58,566 nt of DNA from positions 1-58,566 of the forward strand of contig NZ_CDBZ01000066.1 in NCBI RefSeq assembly GCF_000819985.1. Reading direction: 5' to 3'. A program made the position numbers and the translations under genes. The stretch comes from Aeromonas media. Lineage in GTDB: Bacteria > Pseudomonadota > Gammaproteobacteria > Enterobacterales > Aeromonadaceae. The notes beneath the pieces were generated by a model. The model did no database searches and was not told the DNA's origin. It worked only from the letters and a program-made list of their open reading frames with translations. Below, piece after piece: positions 9,973 through 47,490 of the stretch. Position 1 is the first letter of the stretch. Every line of letters starts with the position of its first letter.

Positions 9973-9996
9973 AACGGGGCCTGCGGGCCCCGTTTT
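9973..9996 (+). terminator. hemE terminator
   Basis: Stem AACGGGGCC / GGCCCCGTT (9973-9981, 9986-9994) with a TGCG loop, followed by a short T-run. Confidence 0.8.
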
Positions 9997-10137
9997 GCTG
10001 CCCGGCCTCGCGGGGGCTGCATCCTGGTCACCGCTCGGGTTACACTGCACCACCACTGAACAGGGTCGCGGACAGGATGGGCGAGTGCACCTCCTGACGA
10101 CCGTGTGAGGGCGTCGTCGAACATGGCAGGAGGCAGG

Positions 10138-11067
10138 ATGGGCAAGAGTGCATGGGACTGGGGAATCGATCTTGGCGGAACCAAGTGCGAGTGCGTGGTA
10201 CTCGAGGGTGACGAGGTGCTGCTGCGCCATCGCATCCCCACCGAGCGCCGTGGCGGTTACGAGCACATGATAGGCCAGATCGCCAAACTGGTGGACGAGT
10301 GCGCCGAGCGGCTCGGCCAGCGTCCCGCCATCCTCGGCATGGGCACCCCGGGGGCGCGGGATCCCCAGACCGGGCTGATGAAGAACTGCAACACCACAGA
10401 GCTCAACGGCAAGCCGTTCAAGGAAGATCTGGAGCGCAGGCTCGGCATTCCTGTGCTGATCGCCAACGACGCCAACTGCTTCGCCCTGGCGGAAACCCAT
10501 CTGGGGGCGGTGCGCCAGCACCATCCCGATGCCAAGGTGGTGTTCGGTATCATCATGGGCACAGGGGTGGGCTCCGGCATCGTCATCAACGGCCAGATCC
10601 TCAACGGCCATCACGGCATTGCCGGTGAGTGGGGCCACAACGTGCTCTCTCCCGACGGCCCCGAGTGCTACTGCGGCAAGCGCGGCTGCGTCGAGACCTT
10701 CATCAGCGGCCCGGCGCTGGAGGCCTGGTATGAGGCCAAGGCCAAGCGCCATCTGTCACTGGCCCAGATAGTGGCGGCCAGTGCCCACGATCACGTCGCC
10801 AGACTCACCATGGACCGGCTGCACCTGCTGTTCGGCCAGGCCTTGGCCAACGTGGTCAACATTCTGGATCCGGACGTCATCGTCATCGGTGGCGGGGTGG
10901 GCAACGTGCAGAGCCTCTACAGCGTCGGTCGGCAGACGGTACTGCCATTCCTCTTCAACCCCCGCTTCGCCACCCCCATCATAGCGCCGGCCCTGGGAGA
11001 CAGTGCCGGGGTGTTCGGGGCCGCGCTGCTGGCCAGAGGCGTCTTCAAGGAGGCCCTGCTGTCGTGA
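10138..11067 (+). CDS. mak: ROK-family sugar kinase, fructokinase (Mak)-like
   Basis: A 309-residue ROK kinase that would phosphorylate a hexose with ATP. The ATP-binding DLGGTK opens the protein. The ROK zinc/sugar signature is intact: GIAGEWGHN then CYCGKRGCVETFISG. The segments KNCNTTELNGKPF and LANVVNILDPDVIVIGGG match E. coli Mak (manno(fructo)kinase) more closely than NagK in my reading, so fructose or mannose is the likely substrate; N-acetylglucosamine remains possible. ATG at 10138 was chosen because AGGAGG ends 4 bases before it; ATGs at 10123 and further upstream are alternatives. It may be co-transcribed with epd 49 bases downstream. Confidence 0.85.
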   Translation: MGKSAWDWGIDLGGTKCECVVLEGDEVLLRHRIPTERRGGYEHMIGQIAKLVDECAERLGQRPAILGMGTPGARDPQTGLMKNCNTTELNGKPFKEDLERRLGIPVLIANDANCFALAETHLGAVRQHHPDAKVVFGIIMGTGVGSGIVINGQILNGHHGIAGEWGHNVLSPDGPECYCGKRGCVETFISGPALEAWYEAKAKRHLSLAQIVAASAHDHVARLTMDRLHLLFGQALANVVNILDPDVIVIGGGVGNVQSLYSVGRQTVLPFLFNPRFATPIIAPALGDSAGVFGAALLARGVFKEALLS

Positions 11068-30000: not shown

Positions 30001-30672
30001 ATGAATATCAAGATGAACAGACTGCAGTCCCGTCTCGGGCATGTCTTTCAGGATCAAGAGCTGCTGACCCGGGCGCTGACCCACCGCAGCGCCGGTTCCC
30101 GTCACAACGAGCGACTGGAATTTCTGGGGGACTCCATCCTGAGTCTGGTGATTGCCGATGACCTCTTCCACCGCTTTCCGCAAGCGGCGGAAGGGGATCT
30201 CAGCCGGATGCGCGCCACCCTGGTGCGGGAGAAGACCCTGGCCGAACTCGGCCGGGAGTTCGACCTCGGGGATCACCTGATCCTGGGGCCCGGCGAGCTG
30301 AAAAGCGGCGGGTTCCGTCGCGAGTCTATCCTGGCCGACACTGTCGAGGCGGTGATCGGCGCCGTCTATCTGGATACCGATCTGGAGCGGGTGCGGACTT
30401 TGTTGCTCGGCTGGTACGCCAGCCGCCTGGACGAGATAAAACCAGGCATAGAGCAGAAGGATCCCAAGACCCGGCTGCAGGAAATTTTGCAGGGAAGCCG
30501 CAAATCCCTGCCGACCTACACAGTGACCAACGTCAAGGGCGAAGCCCACAACCAGGAGTTCACCGTCCAGTGTGACGTGGATGGCCTGGATGGTCCGCTG
30601 GTCGGGGTCGGCACCAGCCGCCGCAAGGCCGAACAGGCTGCGGCGCAGCAAGCACTGGAAAGACTGTCATGA
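30001..30672 (+). CDS. rnc: ribonuclease III Rnc
   Basis: A 223-residue double-strand-specific endonuclease that processes rRNA and many mRNAs. The catalytic signature [18 protein letters not shown] and the second acidic site ([14 protein letters not shown]) are present, followed by a C-terminal double-stranded RNA-binding domain ([20 protein letters not shown] to the end). The first ATG directly follows the lepB stop. The 3' end is unusual: its last codons and stop are repeated 62 bases downstream, just before era. Its TGA overlaps the ATG of the intervening mini-ORF. Confidence 0.97.
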
Positions 30673-30734
30673 CTGCTATTGATGCAAGAGGCCGCGGTCT
30701 TTCAACACAACAGGCACTGGAAAAACTGTCATGA
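30669..30734 (+). repeat. diverged copy of the rnc end/era start junction with 21-codon mini-ORF
   Basis: The 25 bases at 30651-30675 (end of rnc through its TGA) recur at 30713-30737 with three mismatches, exactly 62 bases on. Between them runs a mini-ORF whose ATG (30669) overlaps the rnc stop as ATGA and whose TGA (30732-30734) overlaps the era ATG as ATGA. Its last residues, QQALEKLS, mirror the RNase III C-terminus QQALERLS. It would pass terminating ribosomes from rnc to era. Whether the peptide matters is unknown. Confidence 0.7.
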
Positions 30735-31630
30735 CAGATACGACTTACTGCGGCTTTGTCGCCATCGTGGGCCGCCCCAATGTGGGCAAGTCCACCCTGC
30801 TCAACAAGCTGCTTGGCCAGAAGGTCAGCATCACCTCGAAGAAACCCCAGACCACCCGTCACCGGATTTTGGGGATAGACACCGAGGATAACCATCAGAC
30901 CATCTATGTGGATACCCCGGGTCTGCACATCGAAGAAAAGCGGGCCATCAACCGCCTGATGAACCGCGCCGCCACCAGTTCCCTGGGTGATGTGGCCATG
31001 GTGGTCTTCATGGTCGACGGTACCCACTGGACCAAGGACGACGAGATGGTGCTCGGCAAGTTGCGCCATCTGCCTTGCCCCGTGGTGCTGGCGGTCAACA
31101 AGGTAGACAACGTCAAAGAGAAAGAAGACTTGCTGCCCCACCTGGAGTGGCTGGGCCAGCAGATGAACTTTGCCCACATACTGCCCATCAGTGCCGAGAA
31201 GGGCACCAACGTGGAGAAGATCCGCGAGTGGGCCAAGGATCTGCTGCCGGAGAACAACTTCTTCTTCCCGGAAGATTACGTGACCGACCGCTCGTCCCGC
31301 TTCATGGCCTCAGAGATCATCCGCGAGAAGCTGATGCGTTTCACCGGCGAGGAGCTGCCCTACTCGGTGACGGTGGAGATCGAGCGCTTCAAGGTGGAAG
31401 AGAACGGTCTCTACCACATCCACGGCCTCATCCTGGTGGAGCGCGATGGCCAGAAGAAGATGGTCATCGGCAACAAGGGCGAGAAGATCAAGACCATAGG
31501 TACCGAAGCGCGCCTCGACATGGAGCGGCTGTTCCAGAACAAGGTGCACCTGGAGCTGTGGGTCAAGGTCAAGTCCGGCTGGGCCGATGACGAGCGCGCC
31601 CTGCGCAGTCTTGGCTACGGTGACGATTAA
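30731..31630 (+). CDS. era: ribosome-assembly GTPase Era
   Basis: A 299-residue GTPase that binds 16S rRNA and is needed for small-subunit maturation. G-motifs: [14 protein letters not shown] (G1), DTPG (G3), NKVD (G4). The C-terminal KH domain carries the RNA-binding [13 protein letters not shown]. Its ATG overlaps the stop of the 21-codon mini-ORF described at 30669-30734. Confidence 0.98.
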
Positions 31631-31644
31631 GTGGCGCTGGCTGA

Positions 31645-32352
31645 TTGCTGAACCCGGCTTTCGTCATCCACAGTCGGCCCTATCGGGAGACCAGTCAGCT
31701 GGTCGAGGTCTTCACCCAGGATAGCGGCCGATTTACCCTGGTGGCTCGCGGTTCTCGCGGGCCACGCTCCCCTCTGAAGGGGCTGCTGCAACCCTTCACC
31801 CTGCTCACCATGAGCTGGCGTGGCAAGGGTGATCTCAAGAACCTCGCCCAGGTCGAATGCCCGGATCACTCCCTGCGACTCGGTGGCGATCGCCTCTTCT
31901 ACGGTCTCTATCTCAACGAGCTGGTCTACTACCTGCTCGAAGCCCATACCCCCTTTCCCGAGGTGTTTGATGCCTATGCCCGTGCCCTGATGGCGCTGGC
32001 GGACGGCGAGACGCCAGAGCTGCCCCTGCGCCGCTTCGAGTTTCTGCTGTTGCAGGCGCTTGGCTATGCGGTGGACTTCGAATATGCCGCCGACGACGAC
32101 TCCCCGATCCAGCCCGAGCTGCTCTACGGCTTCGAGCGGGAGCTCGGCTTTGTCGCTTGCGAGCGGGCGCCGGATCCCCGTACCCTGTTCCTCGGCGCCC
32201 ACCTGCTGGCCTTCGCCGAGGGGCGCTTCGATACCCCTCCCTTGCTGCAGGCGGCTAAACGTTTCAGCAGGCTGGCGTTGCAGCCCTATCTGGGTAAACG
32301 CCAGTTAAAGAGCCGGGAGTTGTTTTTAAAACGCCGGAATAGCTTGGGTTAA
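31645..32352 (+). CDS. recO: DNA repair protein RecO
   Basis: RecO loads RecA on SSB-coated DNA together with RecR. The 235-residue protein has the N-terminal OB fold (FVIHSRPYRETSQLVEVFTQDSGRFTLVARGSRG) and the C-terminal helical domain (LRRFEFLLLQALGYAVDF; AAKRFSRLALQPYLG). The only start in frame is the TTG at 31645, after an in-frame TGA and without a clear ribosome site. A GTG at 31631, right behind the era stop, opens a frame (MALADC-stop) that would join RecO if one base were added near 31645, so a one-base deletion is possible. Confidence 0.85.
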   Translation: MLNPAFVIHSRPYRETSQLVEVFTQDSGRFTLVARGSRGPRSPLKGLLQPFTLLTMSWRGKGDLKNLAQVECPDHSLRLGGDRLFYGLYLNELVYYLLEAHTPFPEVFDAYARALMALADGETPELPLRRFEFLLLQALGYAVDFEYAADDDSPIQPELLYGFERELGFVACERAPDPRTLFLGAHLLAFAEGRFDTPPLLQAAKRFSRLALQPYLGKRQLKSRELFLKRRNSLG

Positions 32353-32390
32353 CCGCTCTGAGGCGTTACCCGACACGGTAAGAATGTTAC

Positions 32391-32425
32391 CGACGTCCGA
32401 TTACGCTGCGCTAATCGAACCTACG
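32391..32425. repeat. extragenic palindromic repeat-like element
   Basis: Core dyad CGATTA (32398-32403) and TAATCG (32412-32417) around CGCTGCGC. On the minus strand it reads like the widely dispersed GATTAGCGCAGCGTAATC-type intergenic palindromes of Gammaproteobacteria. A second small hairpin, GCGCGG-TAG-CCGCGC, lies at 32445-32459. Both occupy the 140-base recO-pdxJ gap. Confidence 0.5.
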
Positions 32426-32492
32426 AGCTGATATACGGATATTCGCGCGGTAGCCGCGCAGTCAACAGATGAAGAGTTTCAAGGAGTCCTCA

Positions 32493-33230
32493 ATGAGTGA
32501 AATCTATCTGGGTGTGAACATCGACCATATCGCCACTCTGCGCAACGCCCGCGGCACCCAGTATCCCGATCCTGTCCAGGCCGCCTTCGTGGCCGAGCAG
32601 GCCGGTGCCGATGGCATTACAGTGCACCTGCGCGAAGATCGCCGCCACATCACCGACCGCGACGTGGAGATACTGCGCCAGACCATCCAGACCAGGATGA
32701 ACCTGGAGATGGCGGTAACAGAGGAGATGATCGGCATCGCCTGCCGTATCAAGCCCCAGTTCGTCTGCCTGGTACCGGAGAAGCGCACCGAGGTGACCAC
32801 CGAGGGCGGCCTGGATGTGGCCGGTCAGCTCGACAAGATCACCGATGCGGTGACCCGCCTTGCGGCCGTCGGTGCCCAGGTGTCGCTCTTCATCGACGCC
32901 GACCCCATCCAGATAGATGCGGCCGCCGAGAGTGGTGCCCCCTTCATCGAGATCCACACCGGTCGCTATGCCGATGCCACCACGGATGCGGAGCGCAACG
33001 CCGAGTTCAAGCGCATCGCTGCCGGCGCCTCCTATGCCGCTGGCAAGGGGCTTAAGGTCAATGCCGGCCACGGCCTGCACTACCACAACGTCAAGGCCAT
33101 CGCTGCCATTCCCGAGCTCTATGAGCTCAATATCGGCCACGCCATCATAGGCCGTGCCGCCTTCGACGGTCTGGCCAAGGCGGTCAGTGACATGCGCCTG
33201 CTGATGCAGGAAGCCCGTCAGGGGATCTGA
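32493..33230 (+). CDS. pdxJ: pyridoxine 5'-phosphate synthase PdxJ
   Basis: PdxJ condenses 1-deoxyxylulose 5-phosphate with 3-amino-2-oxopropyl phosphate to form pyridoxine phosphate. The 245-residue TIM barrel shows the family start [40 protein letters not shown] and GHGLHYHN with the active-site His. AAGGAG lies 7 bases before this ATG. A terminator follows at once; acpS, which often comes next in relatives, is absent. Confidence 0.98.
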
Positions 33231-33253
33231 TGTCGGTCTGCCTGCATCGCATA

Positions 33254-33286
33254 AACAAGGGACGCCTCGGCGTCCCTTGTTGTTTT
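33254..33286. terminator. bidirectional terminator between pdxJ and amiD
   Basis: A perfect 13-base stem (33254-33266, 33269-33281) with a 2-base centre, followed by GTTTT on the plus strand. It serves convergent pdxJ and probably amiD. Confidence 0.85.
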
Positions 33287-33299
33287 CGGGGAAGGGGGC

Positions 33300-34214
33300 T
33301 CAGCCCGGCTCGGGGAAGTAGCGCTCCAGCAGGGCCATAAGGATGGCCTGGCACTCGGCATCCGGCTCCCCGGTGATCAAGGCGGGGCGGAAATGGAGCT
33401 GGAATGCACGCATGGCGGCGCGGCTCTGCTCATCCCAGGCGCCGCTTGGCGCTACCCCATAGCCGTAGCGGGCGAGCTGTTGCTGCCATTGCTGCGCATC
33501 CCAGAGGGGGAGTGGCGCCTGGCGCAGTTCGGCCACTCTGGCCTCGTCTGGCCAGGCGCCGACGCCATGGTGAAGGGCCAGCTCGCGCCAGGGGAAGTGG
33601 GGGCCGGGATCCTGCTTGCGTTCGGGGGCTATATCGCTGTGGGCCAGCACCTGGGTGGGGGGGATCTGGTAGCGATCGACCAGCTCCCGGGCCAGAGCGC
33701 CGAGAGCGGCGATCTGGGCCCGGGTATAGGGTTGCCAGCGCCTCAGGTGGGCAGGCAGGGATTCGTCTTCCGTGGGATAACCCAGATTGACTATCTCAAT
33801 GCCCAGCGAGCTGGCGTTGAGCCCGGCATACTGATGCCAGCGGCTGCGACCGGCGTGCCAGGCACGTTGGCTGTCGGGCACCAGCTGGTAAACGGGGAGC
33901 GGGCGTTGCTCGGTGTCGCGGGGGATCAGGTAGTGGGCACTCACCTTGTGTTCGGGTTTGGTCAGCAGGCGCAGGGAGCGGGCGTCGTCCTCGTCGGTGT
34001 AGTGGAGGATCAGAAAAGCGATGCGCTCATTCTGGTTGGCACTGACATGACGGGTGGAGAGCTGATAAGGCGCCGGTTGGCAGGCGCCGAGCCCCAGCAG
34101 CAGGCAGAGTGACAGCAGTATGGTGCGGCATCTGTCTGGCAAGGGGGAAACAAGGGATGGCCAGCGCGGCCTGCCGCCCAGGCGGAATGACGGGGGGCAG
34201 GTGCGCTGGCCCAT
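33300..34214 (-). CDS. amiD: N-acetylmuramoyl-L-alanine amidase AmiD-like lipoprotein
   Basis: This enzyme cleaves the amide between MurNAc and L-Ala in peptidoglycan or muropeptides at the inner face of the outer membrane. The amidase_2 domain shows zinc ligands in FLILHYTD, HSDIAPERKQDPGP and the ALxWHAGxS-like RAWHAGRSRW. A peptidoglycan-binding domain forms the C-terminus (YGYGVAPSGAWDEQSRAAMRAFQLHF). The lipobox LGAC gives lipidation at Cys45 with the ATG at 34214, an oddly long leader. A TTG at 34142 would give a normal 21-residue leader; neither start has a good ribosome site. Confidence 0.9.
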   Translation of the reverse strand: MGQRTCPPSFRLGGRPRWPSLVSPLPDRCRTILLSLCLLLGLGACQPAPYQLSTRHVSANQNERIAFLILHYTDEDDARSLRLLTKPEHKVSAHYLIPRDTEQRPLPVYQLVPDSQRAWHAGRSRWHQYAGLNASSLGIEIVNLGYPTEDESLPAHLRRWQPYTRAQIAALGALARELVDRYQIPPTQVLAHSDIAPERKQDPGPHFPWRELALHHGVGAWPDEARVAELRQAPLPLWDAQQWQQQLARYGYGVAPSGAWDEQSRAAMRAFQLHFRPALITGEPDAECQAILMALLERYFPEPG

Positions 34215-34255
34215 GGCTCAGGCGCGCTGTCTGAGGGTGACGTGCGCGCGCGGGC

Positions 34256-34741
34256 TCATGGCTCTGACCTGTACTTGGCGGTGAGGCCGATGAGGAAGTT
34301 GCGCAGGATCTGATCCCCGCAATCCTGGTAGTGCTTGTGATCCTTGGCGCGGAACAGGGCGCTCAGCTCGGACTTGGAGAGGTTGAAGTTGGCGAGCTTG
34401 AGGGTGCCCAGCATGTCTTCTTCCTTGTAGTCGAGGCCGATGCGCAGCTTGCGCAGGATCAGGTTGTTGTTGATCCGGTTCGGGATCACCTGGGGCGGGG
34501 CATTTTCCCGCACACCGCGACGCACGGCGATGAAGCCGTCGAGGAACTGGCTCAGGGCCGAGTCCGGGCAGGCGGCATAGCCTGCTTCCTGCTCTTCCCC
34601 TTCCGCGGCCTCTTTCAGCAACCAGCTGTGGAGCTGGGCGTGATCGACGGTCAGGTTGCCCTTGGCAAACATCTCGACCATCTGATCGTTGCTGATGGTG
34701 AGGGCGTAGCGCAGGCGGCGCAGAATATCGTTGTTGGTCAT
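34256..34741 (-). CDS. DUF1456 (YehS family) protein
   Basis: A 161-residue protein with two tandem copies of the DUF1456 helical repeat: MTNNDILRRLRYALTISNDQMVEMF at the start and NRINNNLILRKLRIGLDYKEEDMLGTL at about residue 88. Relatives are called YehS in E. coli; function unknown. AGGAG lies 6 bases before the ATG. It lies between barA and amiD on the same strand. Confidence 0.9.
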   Translation of the reverse strand: MTNNDILRRLRYALTISNDQMVEMFAKGNLTVDHAQLHSWLLKEAAEGEEQEAGYAACPDSALSQFLDGFIAVRRGVRENAPPQVIPNRINNNLILRKLRIGLDYKEEDMLGTLKLANFNLSKSELSALFRAKDHKHYQDCGDQILRNFLIGLTAKYRSEP

Positions 34742-34804
34742 GTTGACTCCTGTGGAAACGGCGCGATTTTACCATCTGCGGGCCCCGCAGTCAGAAAAAG
34801 CGCC

Positions 34805-37521
<2,717 letters not shown>

Positions 37522-37525
<4 letters not shown>

Positions 37526-37644
37526 GCTGATAAACCGCCGGCAAACATGATGAAGACCATGGCCCCGGGGGCCTGTGGGCGCAGGGGGAGGGCTGGCAAT
37601 ACAGTCGATGTCACCGTAAGGGCGCTCAGGCCGTATCCTGTCAT
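37522..37644 (-). repeat. second barA start copy with 40-codon mini-ORF
   Basis: The mini-ORF begins MTGYGLSALTVTSTVLPAL, aligning without gaps to the BarA start MTKYGLRARVLAFTILPTL; 20 of the first 27 bases match. After about 19 codons the similarity fades. Its TGA (37524-37522) overlaps the barA ATG (37525-37523) as ATGA. Offset to barA is 119 bases. No clear ribosome site precedes it. Confidence 0.75.
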
Positions 37645-37721
37645 ATCAATGGGCCACTTATGGTCAGATTGGGCAATGGGGCAGAGGCCGCAGCTCGGGC
37701 CCTCAGGCCGCATTTGGTCAT
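37641..37721 (-). repeat. first barA start copy with 26-codon mini-ORF
   Basis: The mini-ORF begins MTKCGLRARAAASAPLPNL and aligns in frame and without gaps to the BarA start; 22 of the first 27 bases match, and of the codons in that stretch that differ, all but one change synonymously. Its TGA (37643-37641) overlaps the ATG of the second copy (37644-37642) as ATGA. Offset to that copy is 77 bases. Confidence 0.75.
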
Positions 37722-37763
37722 ACTATTATTCTTGTGGGACAATGGCCTGCTGCAGATTCCACA

Positions 37764-37792
37764 ATCATGACATAGCCACCTATAGGCACCAA
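37764..37792 (-). promoter_or_regulatory. candidate barA promoter upstream of the start copies
   Basis: Minus strand TTGGTG (37792-37787), a 17-base spacer, CATGAT (37769-37764). If used, the barA message begins near 37757 and contains both mini-ORFs before barA. Confidence 0.4.
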
Positions 37793-37797
37793 GTTTT

Positions 37798-39120
37798 ATG
37801 GCCCAGTTTTTCAAGCCCCAAAAGAAATCCACCCAGCCCCAACGTATTGAATTTACGATAGACAGTCTGGACCACCACTGTGTCGGTGTCGGCCGTCATC
37901 AGGGCAAGGCCATCTTCGTCGAAGGGGCACTCCCCGGTGAGCTGATCAAGGCTCGCATCGTCGATGACAAGAAGCACTATGCCCACGCCGCCCTGCAACA
38001 GATAGTGACCCCGGCGGCCAATCGCATCGATCCCTTCTGCCCCCATTATCGCGAGTGCGGCGGTTGCAGTGCCCAGCACCTCGGCGAAGCGGATCAGCAG
38101 GCGGTCAAGGAGGCCGGGCTGGTCAGCTTGTTCGAGCGCCTTGGCAACATCAAGGCGCCGGCGCTCGAGCCCGTGCTCAAAGGGGAGTCCCGCGCCTACC
38201 GCCGGGTCTGCCGTCTCGCCATCAAGTTTGACAAGAACGGTCGCTGCACCCGGGTGGGTTTCCGTCGCCGTCAATCCAATGACCTGGTGGAGGTGGCGGG
38301 CTGCCCCGTGCTGGCCGATCCCCTCTCTGCCCTCATCACCCCCCTGCGCGAGTGCCTCAATCGCTTGAAGAGCCAGCGCGAGCTGGGGCATGCGGAGCTC
38401 ATCCAGGCCGAACAGGGCATCATGATGTTGCTGCGCCACACTGGTCGCCCCAACGAGGCGGATCGCGCCCTGCTGGTGGCATTTGCCGAGGCCCAGGGGA
38501 TAGACCTCTATCTGCAGGCGGCGGATGAGCGCATTGAACCCCTGCGCCAACAATTTCAGCCGAGCTACACCCTCGATGGCCTGTCTCTTGCATTCGCCCC
38601 TGGCGACTTCATTCAGGTCAACGGCCCCATCAACCAGAGCATGGTGACCCAGGCGCTGGCGTGGCTGGGGGCGACCAAGGACGACAAGGTGCTGGATCTC
38701 TTCTGCGGCATCGGCAACTTCACCCTGCCGCTGGCCCGTCAGGCCCGTGAAGTGGTGGGGGTCGAGGGGGAGCTTGCCATGGTGGCCCGTGCCGAGGAGA
38801 ACGCCCGTCGCAACGGCATCGACAACGCCCGTTTCTACAAGGCGGATTTGAGCGGCGACATCGTCGGCATGTCCTGGGCGCGGGAAGGCTTCGATCTGGT
38901 GTTGCTGGATCCGGCCCGGCCCGGGGCGCTGGAAGTCATGAGCCACGTGGCGGCACTTTCGCCCAAGCGGGTGGTCTATGTTTCCTGTAACCCTGTCACC
39001 CTGGCCCGGGACAGCCAAGTGCTGGTGAAGGGGGGTTATCGACTGGCTCGCCTGGGGATGCTGGACATGTTCCCCCACACCGGTCATCTGGAGTCCATGG
39101 CGCTGTTTGAACGGGATTGA
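37798..39120 (+). CDS. rlmD: 23S rRNA (uracil-1939-C5)-methyltransferase RlmD
   Basis: A 440-residue SAM-dependent RNA methyltransferase with an N-terminal TRAM domain (about residues 15-70), an Fe-S cluster formed by CPHYRECGGCSAQHLG and a later Cys (near residue 160), and a C-terminal methyltransferase fold (KVLDLFCGIGNFTLPLA; LLDPARPGA). The catalytic Cys is in VVYVSCNPVTLARD. It is divergent from barA and precedes relA, as in many Gammaproteobacteria. No ribosome site is obvious before its ATG. Confidence 0.97.
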   Translation: MAQFFKPQKKSTQPQRIEFTIDSLDHHCVGVGRHQGKAIFVEGALPGELIKARIVDDKKHYAHAALQQIVTPAANRIDPFCPHYRECGGCSAQHLGEADQQAVKEAGLVSLFERLGNIKAPALEPVLKGESRAYRRVCRLAIKFDKNGRCTRVGFRRRQSNDLVEVAGCPVLADPLSALITPLRECLNRLKSQRELGHAELIQAEQGIMMLLRHTGRPNEADRALLVAFAEAQGIDLYLQAADERIEPLRQQFQPSYTLDGLSLAFAPGDFIQVNGPINQSMVTQALAWLGATKDDKVLDLFCGIGNFTLPLARQAREVVGVEGELAMVARAEENARRNGIDNARFYKADLSGDIVGMSWAREGFDLVLLDPARPGALEVMSHVAALSPKRVVYVSCNPVTLARDSQVLVKGGYRLARLGMLDMFPHTGHLESMALFERD

Positions 39121-39246
39121 GCAGGCTGTTTTCGGATTGCCGGTGCTGCGTTTTGTCGGCCTTACGATGCCGGTAGCGCTGTTTGCGCAGGGGTGATTAG
39201 GGTAATCTAGATCTGCAAAAATGGGCCTGATGTGCGAGAGAAACCT

Positions 39247-39264
39247 GTTGCCGGGATCGGCAAC
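39247..39264 (+). other. hairpin in the rlmD-relA gap
   Basis: Perfect stem GTTGCCG / CGGCAAC with a GGAT loop, 108 bases before the relA ATG, in a 251-base gap. It lacks a T-run, so it may be a leader structure of relA. I see no strong promoter match in this gap. Confidence 0.35.
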
Positions 39265-39371
39265 ATGCCTTGAAAACTCTCCCGCGCATCCCCATTTGAG
39301 GCAGTCATCAGCTGATGAGGGGATGGCAGAAAGCATCGGCTTTCGGCCCCACAATTTTAAGGATTGATACC

Positions 39372-41582
39372 ATGGTTGCGGTGCGCGAAATTCATTTGAA
39401 AGACAATTTCACTCTGGAGGAGTGGGTCAGTTCCCTTACCCTGAGTGAAAGCGACAAGAATCAACTGCGAACCGTCTACCAGTACTGTCTGACGCTTGGC
39501 GACGAGGCGCTCACCAACCGCCTGCTGGTGCGTGGCGTCGAGATGGTGGGCATACTGCTGATGCTCAGCATGGATCTCGCCACCCTCAAATCGGCCATTC
39601 TCTATCCCTTCGTCGAAGCCGGCCTCATCAAGCAGGAGAAGGTGAACGAGGACTTCGGTCCCAAGATCGCCAAGCTGGTGGAAGGGGTGCTGGAGATGGA
39701 GGCCATCCGCTCTCTGCAGACCCTGCACCGCAGCGAGACCTCCCCGGAGCAGGTGGACAACGTGCGCCGCATGTTGCTCGCCATGGTGGAGGATGTGCGC
39801 GCTGTCGTCATCAAGCTGGCGGAGCGGATCGCCTGCCTGCGGGAAGCCAAGCTGGCGGATGAAGAGACCCGGGTGCTGATGGCCCAGGAGATCACCAACA
39901 TCTATGCGCCCCTTGCCAACCGCCTCGGCATAGGTCAGCTCAAGTGGGAGCTCGAAGATCTCGCCTTCCGTTACCTGCACCCGGATACCTACAAGCAGAT
40001 CGCCAAGCAGCTCGATGAGAAACGACTCGATCGAGAGCGCTACATCCGCGAGTTCGTACAGTCCTTGCGCGATGCGCTTGCCGAGGCCGGCGTCGAGGCC
40101 GAAGTCTACGGCCGCCCGAAACACATCTACAGCATCTGGCGCAAGATGCAGAAGAAACACCTCGAGTTCAACGAGCTGTTCGACGTGCGTGCGGTGCGGG
40201 TGATCACCAAGCGGCTGCAGGATTGTTACGCGGCGCTCGGCATCGTCCACACCCATTTCCATCATATTCCCCGCGAATTTGACGACTATGTCGCCAACCC
40301 CAAGCCCAACGGCTACCAGTCCATCCACACAGTGGTGGTGGGGGAGGAGGGGAAGACGGTGGAGATCCAGATCCGCACCGAGCAGATGCATCAGGATGCC
40401 GAACTCGGCGTGGCGGCGCACTGGCGCTACAAGGAAGGGGCCCAGGCTGCAGCCAAGACCAGTACCTTCGAAGACAAGATCGAGTGGCTGCGCAAGCTGC
40501 TCGCCTGGCAGGAGGATCTCTCCGAGAGCGGCTCCCTGCTGGACGATCTGCGCAGTCAGGTGTTCGAGGACAGAGTCTATGTGTTCACCCCCAAGGGGGA
40601 CGTCATCGACCTGCCGGCGGGGGCTACCCCGCTCGATTTTGCCTATCACGTTCACAGCATGATCGGCCACCGCTGCATCGGGACCAAGGTGGATGGCCGC
40701 ATAGTGCCCTTTACCTACACGCTGCAGACCGGTGATCAGGTGGAGGTGATCACCCAGAAGGAGCCGAACCCGAGCCGCGACTGGATGAACCCCAATGCAG
40801 GCTTCCTGCGCTCCAGCCGGGCGCGGGCCAAGGTGGCGACCTGGTTCAGAAAGCTGGATCGGGACAAGAACATCGCCGCCGGCAAGGAGCTGCTGGAGAA
40901 GGAGCTGGACAGGCACAACCTGACGCTCTCCAAGGTGGACAAGGTGGTGCTGGAGCGCTTCCATGCGGAGGAGCTGGAAGATCTGTTGGCCGGCATCGGC
41001 AGCGGCGACATCCGCATCAACCAGCTGCTCAACTACCTCGACACTCGTTACAACAAGCCGACGGCGGAGGAAGAAGACCGCCGCCTGCTGGAGAAGCTGG
41101 AGCAGAAGGCCAATGCGCCCTTCCGCCCCAAGGCCAAGGATCACATCGTAGTGGAAGGGGTCGGCAATCTGATGACCCACATCGCCCGTTGCTGTCAGCC
41201 CATCCCGGGGGACTCCATCCAGGGTTTCATCACCATGGGTCGTGGCGTCTCCATCCACCGGGAGGATTGCGAACAGCTGAAAGAGCTGTCGCGCCGCAAC
41301 CCGGAGCGACTGATCGATGCGGTCTGGGGGGAAAACTACTCCGGCGGTTATGGCCTCACCATCCGCATCCTCTCCAACGACAGATCCGGCCTGCTGCGTG
41401 ACATCACGACCGTGCTGGCCAACGAGAAGATCAACGTCATGGGGGTGCGCTCGCGCTCCAACGTGCGCGAGCAGACTGCCGAGATCGACATGGAGCTGGA
41501 GATCTACAACATCAACGCCTTCAACCGGGCCTTGGCCAAGCTCAGCCAGCTCAACGACGTGATCAGTGCCAAGCGCCTCTGA
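39372..41582 (+). CDS. relA: (p)ppGpp synthetase I RelA
   Basis: RelA makes the alarmone (p)ppGpp when uncharged tRNA enters stalled ribosomes. The 736-residue protein has an N-terminal pseudo-hydrolase domain that lacks the HD metal motif, as expected for RelA; a synthetase domain (YGRPKHIYSIWRKMQKK; DVRAVRVI; PKPNGYQSIHTVV); a TGS domain (VYVFTPKGDVIDLPAGATPLDFAYHVHS); a zinc-finger-like region with CC in IARCCQPIPGD; and a C-terminal ACT/RRM domain. AAGGA lies 9 bases before the ATG. Confidence 0.97.
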   Translation: MVAVREIHLKDNFTLEEWVSSLTLSESDKNQLRTVYQYCLTLGDEALTNRLLVRGVEMVGILLMLSMDLATLKSAILYPFVEAGLIKQEKVNEDFGPKIAKLVEGVLEMEAIRSLQTLHRSETSPEQVDNVRRMLLAMVEDVRAVVIKLAERIACLREAKLADEETRVLMAQEITNIYAPLANRLGIGQLKWELEDLAFRYLHPDTYKQIAKQLDEKRLDRERYIREFVQSLRDALAEAGVEAEVYGRPKHIYSIWRKMQKKHLEFNELFDVRAVRVITKRLQDCYAALGIVHTHFHHIPREFDDYVANPKPNGYQSIHTVVVGEEGKTVEIQIRTEQMHQDAELGVAAHWRYKEGAQAAAKTSTFEDKIEWLRKLLAWQEDLSESGSLLDDLRSQVFEDRVYVFTPKGDVIDLPAGATPLDFAYHVHSMIGHRCIGTKVDGRIVPFTYTLQTGDQVEVITQKEPNPSRDWMNPNAGFLRSSRARAKVATWFRKLDRDKNIAAGKELLEKELDRHNLTLSKVDKVVLERFHAEELEDLLAGIGSGDIRINQLLNYLDTRYNKPTAEEEDRRLLEKLEQKANAPFRPKAKDHIVVEGVGNLMTHIARCCQPIPGDSIQGFITMGRGVSIHREDCEQLKELSRRNPERLIDAVWGENYSGGYGLTIRILSNDRSGLLRDITTVLANEKINVMGVRSRSNVREQTAEIDMELEIYNINAFNRALAKLSQLNDVISAKRL

Positions 41583-41598
41583 TACCCGATAAATAGTG

Positions 41599-41617
41599 AC
41601 CGGCCCCCGTGGCCGGT
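41599..41617 (+). other. hairpin between relA and mazG
   Basis: Stem ACCGGCC / GGCCGGT with a 5-base loop, 16 bases after the relA stop, followed by TGTGCTTT. It may be a weak terminator or a stabilising 3' end for relA. Confidence 0.4.
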
Positions 41618-41661
41618 TGTGCTTTATGACCCTTCTTGAACGAATCGAAAGCGAAGATCCC

Positions 41662-42459
41662 ATGTCCCAACGTTACGACCTCCCTCAATTGCTCGACATC
41701 ATGGCTCAACTGCGCTCCCCGGACGGGGGTTGCCCCTGGGATCTCAAGCAGAGCTTCCAGACCATAGTGCCCCACACCCTGGAAGAGGCCTACGAGGTGG
41801 CCGATGCCATCGAGACTCAGGATTGGGATGGATTGAAGGGGGAACTCGGGGATCTGCTGTTCCAGGTGGTCTTCTACGCCCAGCTTGGCAAGGAGCAGGG
41901 ACTGTTTGATTTTGCCGACATAGTCGATGCGGTGAGCGAGAAACTCATTCGCCGCCACCCCCATGTGTTCTCCGATGCGGACCTCGGTGACGAGCAGGCG
42001 GTCAAGGTGAACTGGGAGGCGGAGAAGGCCAAGGAGCGGGCCGCGCTGGATAAAGAGAGCGTGCTCGATGACATCCCCCTCTCGCTGCCGGCCCTGACCC
42101 GGGCCGCCAAGATCCAGAAGCGCTGCGCCACCGTCGGTTTCGACTGGAAGACGCTCGGGCCGGTAGTGGACAAGATCCACGAGGAGATTGAGGAGGTGAT
42201 GGAAGAAGCGCTGATGGTCGATGTGGACGAGGCACGGGTAAGCGACGAGCTCGGTGATCTGCTGTTTGCCACCGTCAACCTGGTGCGCCATCTGGGCAAG
42301 GATCCCGAGCAGGTGCTGCGGGGTGCGAACGCCAAGTTCGAACGACGTTTTCGTCAGGTTGAGCAGTTTATTGCAGCGGAAGGGCTGAAAATGACGGATT
42401 GCACCCTGGAGAAGCTGGATGCAGCCTGGTGCCGGGCCAAGGAAACCGAGCAAAGTTGA
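41662..42459 (+). CDS. mazG: nucleoside triphosphate pyrophosphohydrolase MazG
   Basis: MazG hydrolyses (d)NTPs to monophosphates and affects ppGpp levels. The 265-residue protein has two MazG domains. The first shows [27 protein letters not shown] with the EExxE-type metal site followed by [16 protein letters not shown]; the second repeats this as [10 protein letters not shown] and [17 protein letters not shown]. It follows relA. The ATG at 41662 matches the family start best; an in-frame ATG at 41626 is possible, and neither has a strong ribosome site. Confidence 0.95.
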
Positions 42460-42505
42460 TTTGGCGCAAGACGAGGGAGCGGCGAGCCTGATAGATTTTT
42501 GTTCA

Positions 42506-42534
42506 TTGTTTGGGAGAGGGGGTTTTGGTATACT
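42506..42534 (+). promoter_or_regulatory. pyrG promoter
   Basis: TTGTTT (42506-42511), a 17-base spacer ending in an extended -10 TGG, then TATACT (42529-42534). Transcription would start about 42541 within a run of Cs, 60 bases before the pyrG ATG. Confidence 0.7.
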
Positions 42535-42582
42535 GTTTCCCCGTCCTGCTTCATCCCCGAAGCACCCCTTAAAATTCCCTAA

Positions 42583-45626
<3,044 letters not shown>

Positions 45627-45653
45627 TTACTGCCTGCAATTCTTAAGCTGTTG

Positions 45654-45684
45654 AAAAGCCCCGCCACTCTGGCGGGGCTTTTTT
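45654..45684 (+). terminator. eno terminator
   Basis: A 13-base stem (45654-45666, 45670-45682) with a CTC loop, running into a six-T tract. Confidence 0.9.
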
Positions 45685-45713
45685 GTATCTGTCGCCACCC
45701 CATTGTCAGGCCA

Positions 45714-45734
45714 GCCGCTGATCTGCGGCGGTTT
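45714..45734 (+). terminator. possible second weak terminator after eno
   Basis: GCCGC / GCGGC (45714-45718, 45725-45729) followed by GGTTTT. The rest of the eno-ftsB gap to 45913 shows T-rich tracts and the ftsB ribosome site, but no gene or convincing promoter. Confidence 0.35.
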
Positions 45735-45913
45735 TCGTATGGTTGCCGCCAATCTGGCGCCAAGGCCGCCCGTCCTGGGAACTGCGCGGTTTTTTGGCCC
45801 TCGTCTGCTCGGCCCGTCATCTTTTTTAGTCCCCCGCCCCGTCTGGCACACCGGCTTTCTTTTGTCTTGCCTGCGAATATGGGAAACTAGGCCGCTTGAA
45901 GGAGACTCAGTGC

Positions 45914-46231
45914 ATGCGGCTACTCACTCTTATCCTGCTCCTCCTGTTGGGAGGGCTGCAATATGACTTCTGGCTGGGGAAAAACGGCCTATCCGATTAT
46001 CGGGAGCTCTCCAATGCCATCGAGCGGCAACAGCAGGACAATCTGGTTCTCAAGGACCGCAACAACCTGATTTACCGGGAGATCGACGATCTGACCTCGG
46101 GCCTTGAGGCCATCGAGGAGCTGTCGCGCAACGATCTTGGCTACATCAAGCAGGGCGAGACCTTCTACCGGATCATTCCCAAAGACAAAGACCAAGCAAC
46201 GGAGCCGGACGGCGTCCCCTACGATGATTGA
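45914..46231 (+). CDS. ftsB: cell division protein FtsB
   Basis: A 105-residue bitopic divisome protein that bridges FtsL and FtsQ and helps activate septal wall synthesis. One membrane helix (MRLLTLILLLLLGGLQYDFW) is followed by a leucine-zipper-like coiled coil (YRELSNAIERQQQDNLVLKDRNNLIYREIDDL) and the conserved LGYIKQGETFYRII. AAGGAG lies about 10 bases before the ATG. It overlaps ispD by 8 bases, the usual ftsB-ispD arrangement. Confidence 0.95.
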   Translation: MRLLTLILLLLLGGLQYDFWLGKNGLSDYRELSNAIERQQQDNLVLKDRNNLIYREIDDLTSGLEAIEELSRNDLGYIKQGETFYRIIPKDKDQATEPDGVPYDD

Positions 46232-46934
46232 TTGCCACAGCGGGCTGACCGCCATAGTTCCGGCCGCCGGTATCGGCAGCCGCATGGGAGCAGACTGCCC
46301 CAAGCAGTACCTGACACTGGCAGGGAAGACCATCCTGGAGCATACGCTCGGCTGTTTACTGTCCCATCCGGGCATAGCCCGGGTGATAGTGGCGCTGGCG
46401 CCGCACGATGAGTGGTTCGAGCAACTGGCCGTGGCGGCCGACCCGCGGGTGCTGCGAGTGGAAGGGGGGAGCGAGCGTGCCTATTCGGTGCTCAACGCCC
46501 TGCATGTGGTAGAGGGGAAGTGGGTACTGGTGCATGACGCCGCCCGCCCCTGTCTGACCCAGGGGGATCTCGATGCCCTGATAGCCAGTGCCATGGCGTG
46601 CGATGGCGCCATCCTCGGTAGCCGGGTGCGCGACACCATGAAACGCACAGACGGGGCTGGCAACATAGTGGCTACCGTCGAGCGCGAACAGCTTTGGCAT
46701 GCCCTGACGCCGCAGATGTTTCCCACCGGCACCCTGAAGCGGGCGCTGGAGGAGGGGCTGGCCTTGGGGGCCCTCATCACAGACGAAGCCTCCGCCATGG
46801 AGCGCGCCGGTTTTACCGTGAAGATGGTGGAGGGGCGTGCCGACAACATCAAGGTGACCCGCCCGGAAGATCTCTCCCTGGCCGAGCTCTTTTTACAACA
46901 ACAGAGTGCGCGCCAGCAGGTGCGACCCGATTGA
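46224..46934 (+). CDS. ispD: 2-C-methyl-D-erythritol 4-phosphate cytidylyltransferase IspD
   Basis: IspD joins CTP and methylerythritol phosphate in the non-mevalonate isoprenoid pathway. The 236-residue protein has the nucleotide-binding AIVPAAGIGSRMGADCPKQYL, then VHDAARPCL and DEASAMERAGFTVKMVEGRADNIKVTRPED. The ATG lies inside the ftsB end. ispF, the enzyme two steps later in the pathway, follows, separated by a 21-codon mini-ORF. Confidence 0.97.
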   Translation: MIDCHSGLTAIVPAAGIGSRMGADCPKQYLTLAGKTILEHTLGCLLSHPGIARVIVALAPHDEWFEQLAVAADPRVLRVEGGSERAYSVLNALHVVEGKWVLVHDAARPCLTQGDLDALIASAMACDGAILGSRVRDTMKRTDGAGNIVATVEREQLWHALTPQMFPTGTLKRALEEGLALGALITDEASAMERAGFTVKMVEGRADNIKVTRPEDLSLAELFLQQQSARQQVRPD

Positions 46935-46951
46935 CCCGCAGAGGGGCCCGC

Positions 46952-47017
46952 ATGATCCGCATTGGACATGGTTTTGATGAGACAGATTTCTGTGTATTGA
47001 GGGGGGATCAGGCATGA
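46952..47017 (+). repeat. diverged copy of the ispF start with 21-codon mini-ORF
   Basis: Bases 46952-46978 match the ispF start (47014-47040) at 24 of 27 positions, exactly 62 bases upstream, and each copy has a GAGGGG ribosome site. The mini-ORF reads [20 protein letters not shown] plus Ala; its first nine residues repeat the IspF N-terminus. Its TGA (47015-47017) overlaps the ispF ATG as ATGA. Confidence 0.8.
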
Positions 47018-47490
47018 TGCGAATTGGACATGGTTTTGACGTGCACAAGTTTGGCGGGGTTGGCCCCTGCATGCTGGGTGGCGTCCCGGTACCCTATGAG
47101 CAGGGCCTGCTGGCCCACTCCGACGGTGACGTCGTGCTGCATGCGGTGAGCGATGCCCTGCTGGGGGCCATAGGCGCCGGTGACATCGGCCGTCACTTCC
47201 CCGATACCGCCGCCGAGTTCAAGGGGATCGACAGCCGCATCCTGCTGCGGGACGTCTTTGCCCGGGTACAGCAGGCGGGCTATGCCATCGGCAACCTGGA
47301 TGTGACCATCATCGCCCAGGCTCCCAAGATGGCGCCACATATCGGGGCTATGTGCGCCGTGCTGGCGGCCGATCTGCAATGTGATTTGAACCGGGTGAAT
47401 GTCAAGGCGACCACCACAGAACAACTCGGGTTTACGGGGCGCAAGGAAGGGATCGCCACCGAAGCCGTCGTCTTACTGGTGAAACAATGA
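47014..47490 (+). CDS. ispF: 2-C-methyl-D-erythritol 2,4-cyclodiphosphate synthase IspF
   Basis: IspF cyclises CDP-methylerythritol 2-phosphate to the cyclodiphosphate. The 158-residue trimeric enzyme shows the zinc and substrate residues in [40 protein letters not shown] and [14 protein letters not shown]. It overlaps truD by ATGA. Its own start is preceded by a diverged copy of itself. Confidence 0.97.

Follow-up and report, generated by a model that had tools for sequence, protein, structure and literature searches.

Upstream of era, barA and ispF, the Aeromonas media window analyzed here (the whole 58,566-nucleotide stretch of contig NZ_CDBZ01000066.1; genome G000, contig C66, with A. rivipollensis, G022, as a close relative) carries diverged copies of translation initiation regions, which we call echo starts. 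Each echo start opens a short open reading frame (mini-ORF) whose stop codon overlaps the next start codon. At six gene junctions of the genus, this relay frame was intact in 102 of 104 echo-bearing sequences (91 of 93 distinct ones), counting overlaps of +1, +5 or -2; in the relative G023, relays were concentrated at junctions where the upstream gene is itself coupled to the echo. The earlier suggestion that echo starts could work as relays thus gains strong support from sequence comparison. We consider it probable that a lineage-specific habit of duplication in Aeromonas is filtered by selection for termination-reinitiation coupling, with the resulting alleles moving between species.

Echo starts in the window and relays across the genus

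The first-pass annotation of the window had claimed two echo starts at barA and one each at era and ispF. Read directly and by script, all four were present at the claimed offsets (77 and 119 at barA, 62 at era and 62 at ispF), which are all 2 modulo 3, and the terminal TGA of each mini-ORF overlaps the following ATG as ATGA. The era echo ATG lies at 30669 and the real ATG at 30731, and the ispF echo ATG lies at 46952 and the real ATG at 47014; both mini-ORFs have 21 codons. On the minus strand, the barA echo ATGs at 37721 and 37644 precede the real ATG at 37525, with mini-ORFs of 26 and 40 codons. The elements of the three sites are as follows.

30001..30672, plus strand: rnc (RNase III), the gene upstream of era, its TGA overlapping the era echo start as ATGA (from the ORF list, with the C-terminus read and the frame followed)
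30669..30734, plus strand: era echo mini-ORF, 21 codons and TGA, its stop overlapping the era ATG and its second half resembling the rnc tail
30731..31630, plus strand: era from its real start, at the end of the proposed relay
37641..37721, minus strand: first barA echo mini-ORF, 26 codons and TGA, its ATG at the position of the real barA start in echo-free species
37522..37644, minus strand: second barA echo mini-ORF, 40 codons and TGA, ending as ATGA at the real barA ATG
34805..37525, minus strand: barA sensor kinase gene from its real start, after two proposed relay steps
46104..46934, plus strand: ispD, the gene upstream of ispF (coordinates of the longest ORF, start predicted)
46952..47017, plus strand: ispF echo mini-ORF, 21 codons and TGA, preceded by AGAGGGG (Shine-Dalgarno-like by eye)
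47014..47490, plus strand: ispF from its real start, at the end of the proposed relay

In the window, the era echo is similar to the end of rnc and to the bases directly following the ATG, and to no further part of the era start. At ispF, the ispD stop begins 20 nt before the echo start in the window and overlaps the echo or gene start in several relatives; among echo-bearing genomes, the distance from the ispD stop to the ispF echo start was 20, 30, 39, 43, 58, 59, 72, 87 or 100 bases, covering all residues modulo 3. Other species have a 77-base echo form that resembles the ispF start, and two such units of 77 occur in A. finlandensis, A. rivuli and G034. The ispF loci L099 (G020) and L100 (G004) contain two decayed echo units and a GTG start after GGAGG, the relay being seemingly lost.

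The echoes are not a product of chance, because a gene-blind scan of the window for local direct similarity returned only these three sites at a score of at least 22, and because the same organization recurs, diverged, in other species. Assembly error was rejected as their source, since echoes are also found in other genomes that are single contigs (G010, G015, G023, G035 and G036), and relatives hold echo-free alleles.

We traced six junctions in up to 37 Aeromonas genomes, following translation by script from the upstream gene or from the first echo start. The rnc-era, barA and ispF queries found matches in 37/37 genomes. The cusA, sbcC and trpG junctions came from a scan of 640 kb of a closed relative, G023, and were then checked across the genus; these gene names derive from recognised sequence rather than from a search. 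For these three, six of the 36 matching genomes returned no locus, which left 30 loci. Echo-bearing and echo-free alleles both occurred, as follows, with the relay count, the count in the other two reading frames and the relay steps observed.

rnc-era: echo in 18/37 genomes, plain rnc-era overlap in 19/37; relay 18/18, other frames 0/36; steps 62 and 65
barA: at least one echo unit in 31/37 genomes; relay 31/31, other frames 14/62; steps 32, 47, 77, 80, 116, 119, 152, 155, 158 and 161, and one of 79
ispD-ispF: echo in 20 of 36 genomes fetched, leaving out G019 (contig edge) and G036 (fetched, without a recognisable echo start); relay 18/20, other frames 7/40; steps 59, 62 and 77
cusB-cusA: echo above the similarity threshold in 23/30 loci; relay 23/23, other frames 2/46; steps 77 and 80
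sbcD-sbcC: echo in 5/30 loci; relay 5/5, other frames 2/10; steps 8, 86, 89, 170 and 179
trpE-trpG: echo in 7/26 loci examined, four of 30 being left out for an unaligned start codon (G003, G005, G033 and G035) and two score-9 similarities, one with a relay and one without, being set aside as chance; relay 7/7, other frames 0/14; step 88

Altogether, the other two frames reached the real start in 25/208 cases. With +1 or +5 overlaps alone, the relay was intact in 98/104 sequences; four ispF sequences were gained at -2, which corresponds to TGATG overlaps. Most mini-ORFs ended in the ATGA overlap, and the rest ended in TGATG or in an 8-base overlap.

Outside trpG, all relay steps were 2 modulo 3 except the step of 79 at barA in G010, which has the 8-base overlap ATGACTAG. 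The natural trpE-trpG overlap is the 8-base ATGACTAA, and all seven trpG mini-ORFs end in the same overlap, as trpE does, so that their offset, 88, departs from the 2 modulo 3 pattern. A mini-ORF seems, as a rule, to end in the same overlap type as the upstream gene had. At barA of A. lusitana and A. tecta (G018 and G032), a frame-shifted echo is bridged by an internal ATGA, giving steps of 32 and 47.

The barA gene lacks an echo in A. cavernicola, A. diversa, A. lacus, A. simiae, G016 and G029. Since these six echo-free genomes start barA at the position of the first echo of the others, the first barA echo is probably the ancestral start site of barA.

Boundary duplications, their origin and spread

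Echo starts are a subset of a wider class of duplications at gene boundaries. In the 640 kb scanned of the 4.55 Mb of G023, we found 40 local duplications, of which 29 were at gene boundaries as defined by an ORF-picking script rather than annotation, with spacings of 52 to 179 bases (about 44 per Mb in the sampled stretches). Judged by eye, one of these is a pair of tRNA genes. The boundary duplications sit at 5′ ends, at 3′ ends (convergent ones included) and between genes.

Fourteen of the 29 had no start-codon pair, and the other 15 gave 20 start pairs, with some duplications contributing on each strand. We called a pair coupled when a long upstream ORF ends on the echo start. Relays were present in 8/9 coupled pairs versus 1/11 uncoupled pairs (Fisher p about 0.0009), and the other two frames of the coupled set gave a relay in 4/18. 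One of the eight coupled relays involves a 138-codon frame opposite a longer gene, which may not be real; without it, the count is 7/8. In 8/8 coupled relays, the relay stop had the same offset as the upstream-gene stop (+1, +5 or -4). Of all the evidence, this contrast between coupled and uncoupled junctions argues most strongly for coupling as what keeps the frame.

The controls gave few such sites. In 400 kb of the basal Aeromonas G029, all six boundary matches were tRNA genes by eye. Two other genera of the family, at 200 kb each, gave three matches (one tRNA and two weaker) and one match (tRNA). The five matches in 350 kb of Escherichia coli K-12 we take, in part by eye, to be a CRISPR array, two BIME/REP-like elements, a 5S rRNA gene and one weak similarity. 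Duplications in gene interiors amounted to 17.2 per Mb in G023, versus 5.0 in G029, 10.0 and 0.0 in the other genera and 11.4 in E. coli K-12.

A second comparison covered the surroundings of era. In 27 Aeromonas records (26 named species and one uncultured), 545 kb contained 34 non-tRNA boundary duplications, and in 52 other gammaproteobacteria, 1,035 kb contained 4; the interior rates were equal, at 11.0 and 11.6 per Mb, respectively. An uncultured member of the Aeromonadaceae (L344) was placed in neither group. The era-region stretches of A. simiae and A. diversa had no boundary duplications, 40 kb of G016 had zero and 60 kb of G036 had two. Core species were not uniform: at a threshold of 20, 9/36 Aeromonas stretches had no duplications, seven of these being from core species. 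Elsewhere in A. diversa, a basal species, stretch L017 (G009) has two local repeats at about 951-1864, with spacings of 87 and 96 and 97-98% identity, one of which was classed as a boundary repeat.

Regarding origin, the echoes look like in-place tandem duplications across a gene junction. In ten echoes from the six loci, nine matched their own gene start (z 6.7 to 32.5); the tenth, the era echo of the window, did not match its own start (z -0.5) but matched its own rnc tail (z 9.7). The copy adjoins its source at all six loci. By score, the tail of the upstream gene could be recognised only in the echoes of era (z 8.1 and 9.7) and sbcC (z 4.3); at cusA and trpG, remnants of it were visible by eye. 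Two long sbcC echoes, in L244 (G031) and L250 (G036), have offsets of 179 and 178, reach well into the gene and include, by eye, a disturbed nucleotide-binding motif.

An alternative raised in the first-pass annotation is that illegitimate recombination with related DNA made each echo directly. The patchy distribution of echoes, the echo cores common to distant species and some trpG echoes that are, by eye, nearer to another species' start than to their own are consistent with it. Nevertheless, the era and sbcC copies carry the upstream tail in the order expected of a tandem duplication, the coupled relays of G023 keep the overlap offset of the original junction, and A. bivalvium (G005) has a tandem pair of near-identical 65-base era units (97% over 93 bases), so that we regard direct formation in this way as unlikely. 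That part of the suggestion is weakened by the resemblance of the copies to their own loci, and the part concerning exchange gains support, because echo alleles seem to move between Aeromonas species.

The era echo bears on this exchange. Five genomes (G000, A. australiensis, A. rivipollensis, A. salmonicida and G023) share its 36-base core without a single difference, although their era genes have 91.6 to 98.3% identity with the G000 gene; exchange by homologous recombination would be the simplest reading. Five other 62-base era echoes match 28 to 35 of the 36 core bases. Additionally, the trpG and sbcC echoes of G023 have no counterpart in the close relatives G000 and G022. On a tree of the 37 genomes built on the same three genes (era, barA and ispF), the era echo needed 11 changes, so that it was scarcely better clustered than under label shuffling (mean 12.7, with 111/500 as low), the ispF echo needed 7 (two unscored genomes taken as echo-free) and the barA echo needed 3.

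Regarding the source of the duplications, staggered breaks followed by end joining would give local duplications of similar size. The Ku-dependent route is unsupported in Aeromonas, since Ku (PF02735) was found in 0/37 genomes; as a control among 14 genomes, it was matched in Bacillus subtilis. Error-prone copying was also considered, because the copies are rarely near-identical. In the G023 duplication with spacing (d) 171, the copies are 8% apart and the same stretch differs by about 10% between species; given this similarity and a diverged third copy, nothing beyond ordinary ageing is needed. Repeats that are still fresh and identical may be unstable. The d 171 array (L031, G023, 3191-3464) consists of two 103-base copies with, by eye, a strongly diverged third between them; it is a single copy in G000 and G022, and the alignments of G010 and G018 extend over the full array, at about 70%.

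Proposed mechanism and points for and against

According to the explanation that we favor, short tandem duplications with a spacing of about 50 to 180 bases arise or persist at gene boundaries in much of Aeromonas with a much higher frequency than in its relatives. A duplication spanning a coupled junction would copy the stop of the upstream gene together with the start of the downstream gene. The upstream gene would then end on the copied start, and the mini-ORF would end at the real start in the same overlap type. Ribosomes leaving the upstream gene could reinitiate on the mini-ORF, terminate and reinitiate on the real gene; at barA, the relay would lead on from the ancestral start. Homologous recombination would spread the alleles between species, and recombination would also remove echoes.

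Most mini-ORFs showed little amino-acid constraint, yet the relay frame was kept. At cusA, diversity at codon positions 1, 2 and 3 was 0.36, 0.30 and 0.36 in the mini-ORFs versus 0.11, 0.00 and 0.22 in the real gene. The values were nearly even in the mini-ORFs of barA (0.24, 0.29 and 0.34 versus 0.04, 0.00 and 0.32 in the real gene) and of ispF (0.28, 0.28 and 0.39 versus 0.02, 0.02 and 0.41). They were even at era (0.10, 0.12 and 0.10, and 0.23, 0.28 and 0.24), where the comparison with the real gene is spoilt by a length difference near the start. No conserved mini-ORF peptide was apparent between the species compared.

These data bear on the possibility that the relays are tolerated neutral scars, the frame being conserved through shared descent and the horizontal copying of a few alleles. 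Boundary duplications are also present where a relay could not form, at the 3′ ends of genes and between them, and the identical era echo cores across species imply few independent alleles at era; the substitution-only simulations described below are not decisive either. We nevertheless find this account improbable: the cusA mini-ORFs differ at approximately one-third of sites, yet all 23 relay steps are 77 or 80, the other frames rarely succeed and relays are concentrated at coupled junctions.

A regulatory role, in which relay steps would act as valves or attenuators tuning barA, ispF, era and other genes and would be kept for that purpose, appears quite unlikely. It would fit the persistence of two-unit barA forms in many species and the Shine-Dalgarno-like GGAGG that lies inside the echo before several real ispF starts. 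However, the sequence, number and length of the mini-ORFs vary between close species, several species have none and the peptide is not conserved in any apparent way.

Several points weigh against the favored explanation. The accepted overlaps (+1, +5 and -2) were fixed only after the sequences had been seen, and the sequences share descent, so that the counts are not independent events. The ispF relay is broken in A. bestiarum and A. piscicola (G004 and G020), where GGAGG precedes the GTG start, and one coupled G023 junction (d 88) has no relay. Codon-position diversity was computed solely on mini-ORFs already of relay length; at barA and ispF it leans to position 3, and at trpG it is uneven (0.13, 0.06 and 0.18 versus 0.03, 0.00 and 0.28 in the real gene). 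Neutrality was modestly disfavored by simulations with substitutions alone along a spanning tree (log10 P of -1.2, -2.3 and -0.9), and column shuffles were uninformative on stops. On the same spanning tree, alignment gaps were mostly not multiples of three (3/6, 14/39 and 3/21); because these alignments span differing numbers of units, reliance was placed on the relay steps. In the era-region comparison, 18 of the 34 Aeromonas duplications are the sites that prompted the finding (10 era echoes and 8 barA echoes), and the remaining 16 correspond to about 29 per Mb. Lastly, the upstream tail had z below 2 at barA, ispF, cusA and trpG, whose echoes are recognisable by the gene start instead.

A broader reading is more tentative, although we regard it as quite possible. 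In core Aeromonas, a process might continually make boundary duplications of 50 to 180 bases, on the order of 200 per genome by extrapolation from 640 kb of one genome (G023), and coupled junctions might accept nearly only those in frame. The outcome would be stepping-stone ORFs throughout the genome on which reinitiation depends, and a constructive neutral ratchet that separates the genes of an operon with their coupling unbroken. Echo-bearing junctions themselves offer natural replicates for asking how many steps of termination and reinitiation can be borne by a coupled junction, and which features of the intervening ORF matter. They are a likely case of selection on the reading frame with little selection on the peptide, and their restriction to one lineage points to a source of short duplications in Aeromonas. 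They could also easily be mistaken in annotation for gene starts or small proteins.

Known systems and further duplications

Mycobacterial interspersed repetitive units (MIRUs) have unit sizes near 77 bp, and a step of 77 recurs at barA, ispF and cusA. Ten echoes from the six loci matched their own locus and not clearly other loci; only two weak echo-to-echo matches between loci were seen (scores of 10 and 12, z 4.1 and 4.3), and no dispersed repeat common to the loci was found among them.

The first-pass annotation knew of no description of a similar pattern, which did not hold. As described in one review, MIRUs are short, repetitive, apparently mobile sequences of many mycobacteria that insert at start codons, where their internal ORF is coupled to the gene at -4 nt, and expression is thought to be little affected (PMC12548453). 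The Aeromonas echo is likewise short and placed at a stop/start junction, and in most sequences its internal ORF is coupled to the next gene with the -4 nt spacing, but MIRUs are a dispersed repeat, whereas the echoes resemble their own locus and have no clear sequence in common between loci. As for mobility, Aeromonas has both echo-free and echo-bearing alleles, but the copies look like local duplications. Since the geometry is the same and no dispersed sequence is shared, the echoes would work like MIRUs without being members of the family. A MIRU-like mobile repeat inserting at stop/start overlaps could explain the shared geometry and the recurrent step; however, boundary duplications also occur away from starts, and together with the locus-specific matches this makes such a repeat highly improbable.

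Coupling at ATGA overlaps is well established (PMC6728339, PMC12548453), and the first of these reports describes strict coupling in 13/14 gene pairs tested in Haloferax volcanii and E. coli (PMC6728339). The relay steps share the overlap geometry of such ordinary coupled pairs, but differ in that a mini-ORF born of duplication stands between the genes, its frame being preserved although its amino acids are little constrained. They also differ from a short upstream ORF delivering ribosomes to a coupled gene, since the echoes come from duplication of the junction, take two serial steps at some loci and form a set of loci within a genus. Among the literature matches listed, in which subscription papers were thinly covered, none described duplicated starts that Aeromonas retains as relays.

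Further duplications were also observed. Some 1.5 to 1.9 kb away from the start of barA lies a junction whose direct repeats, with spacings of 100 to 178 bases, vary between species:

L020 (G012), 10372-10718: barA-proximal repeats
L010 (G002), 9996-10179: barA-proximal repeats
L012 (G004), 60-313: barA-proximal repeats

Approximately 8 kb upstream of era, several Aeromonas species have a further boundary duplication with a spacing of 105 to 118:

L317, about 1730: duplication upstream of era
L319, about 1748: duplication upstream of era
L330, about 1775: duplication upstream of era
L334, about 1811: duplication upstream of era
L336 and L338, about 1834: duplication upstream of era

Finally, A. 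rivuli L032 (G024) has, at about 3283-3661, a tandem array in sequence classed as intergenic, each unit being about 63 bases long.

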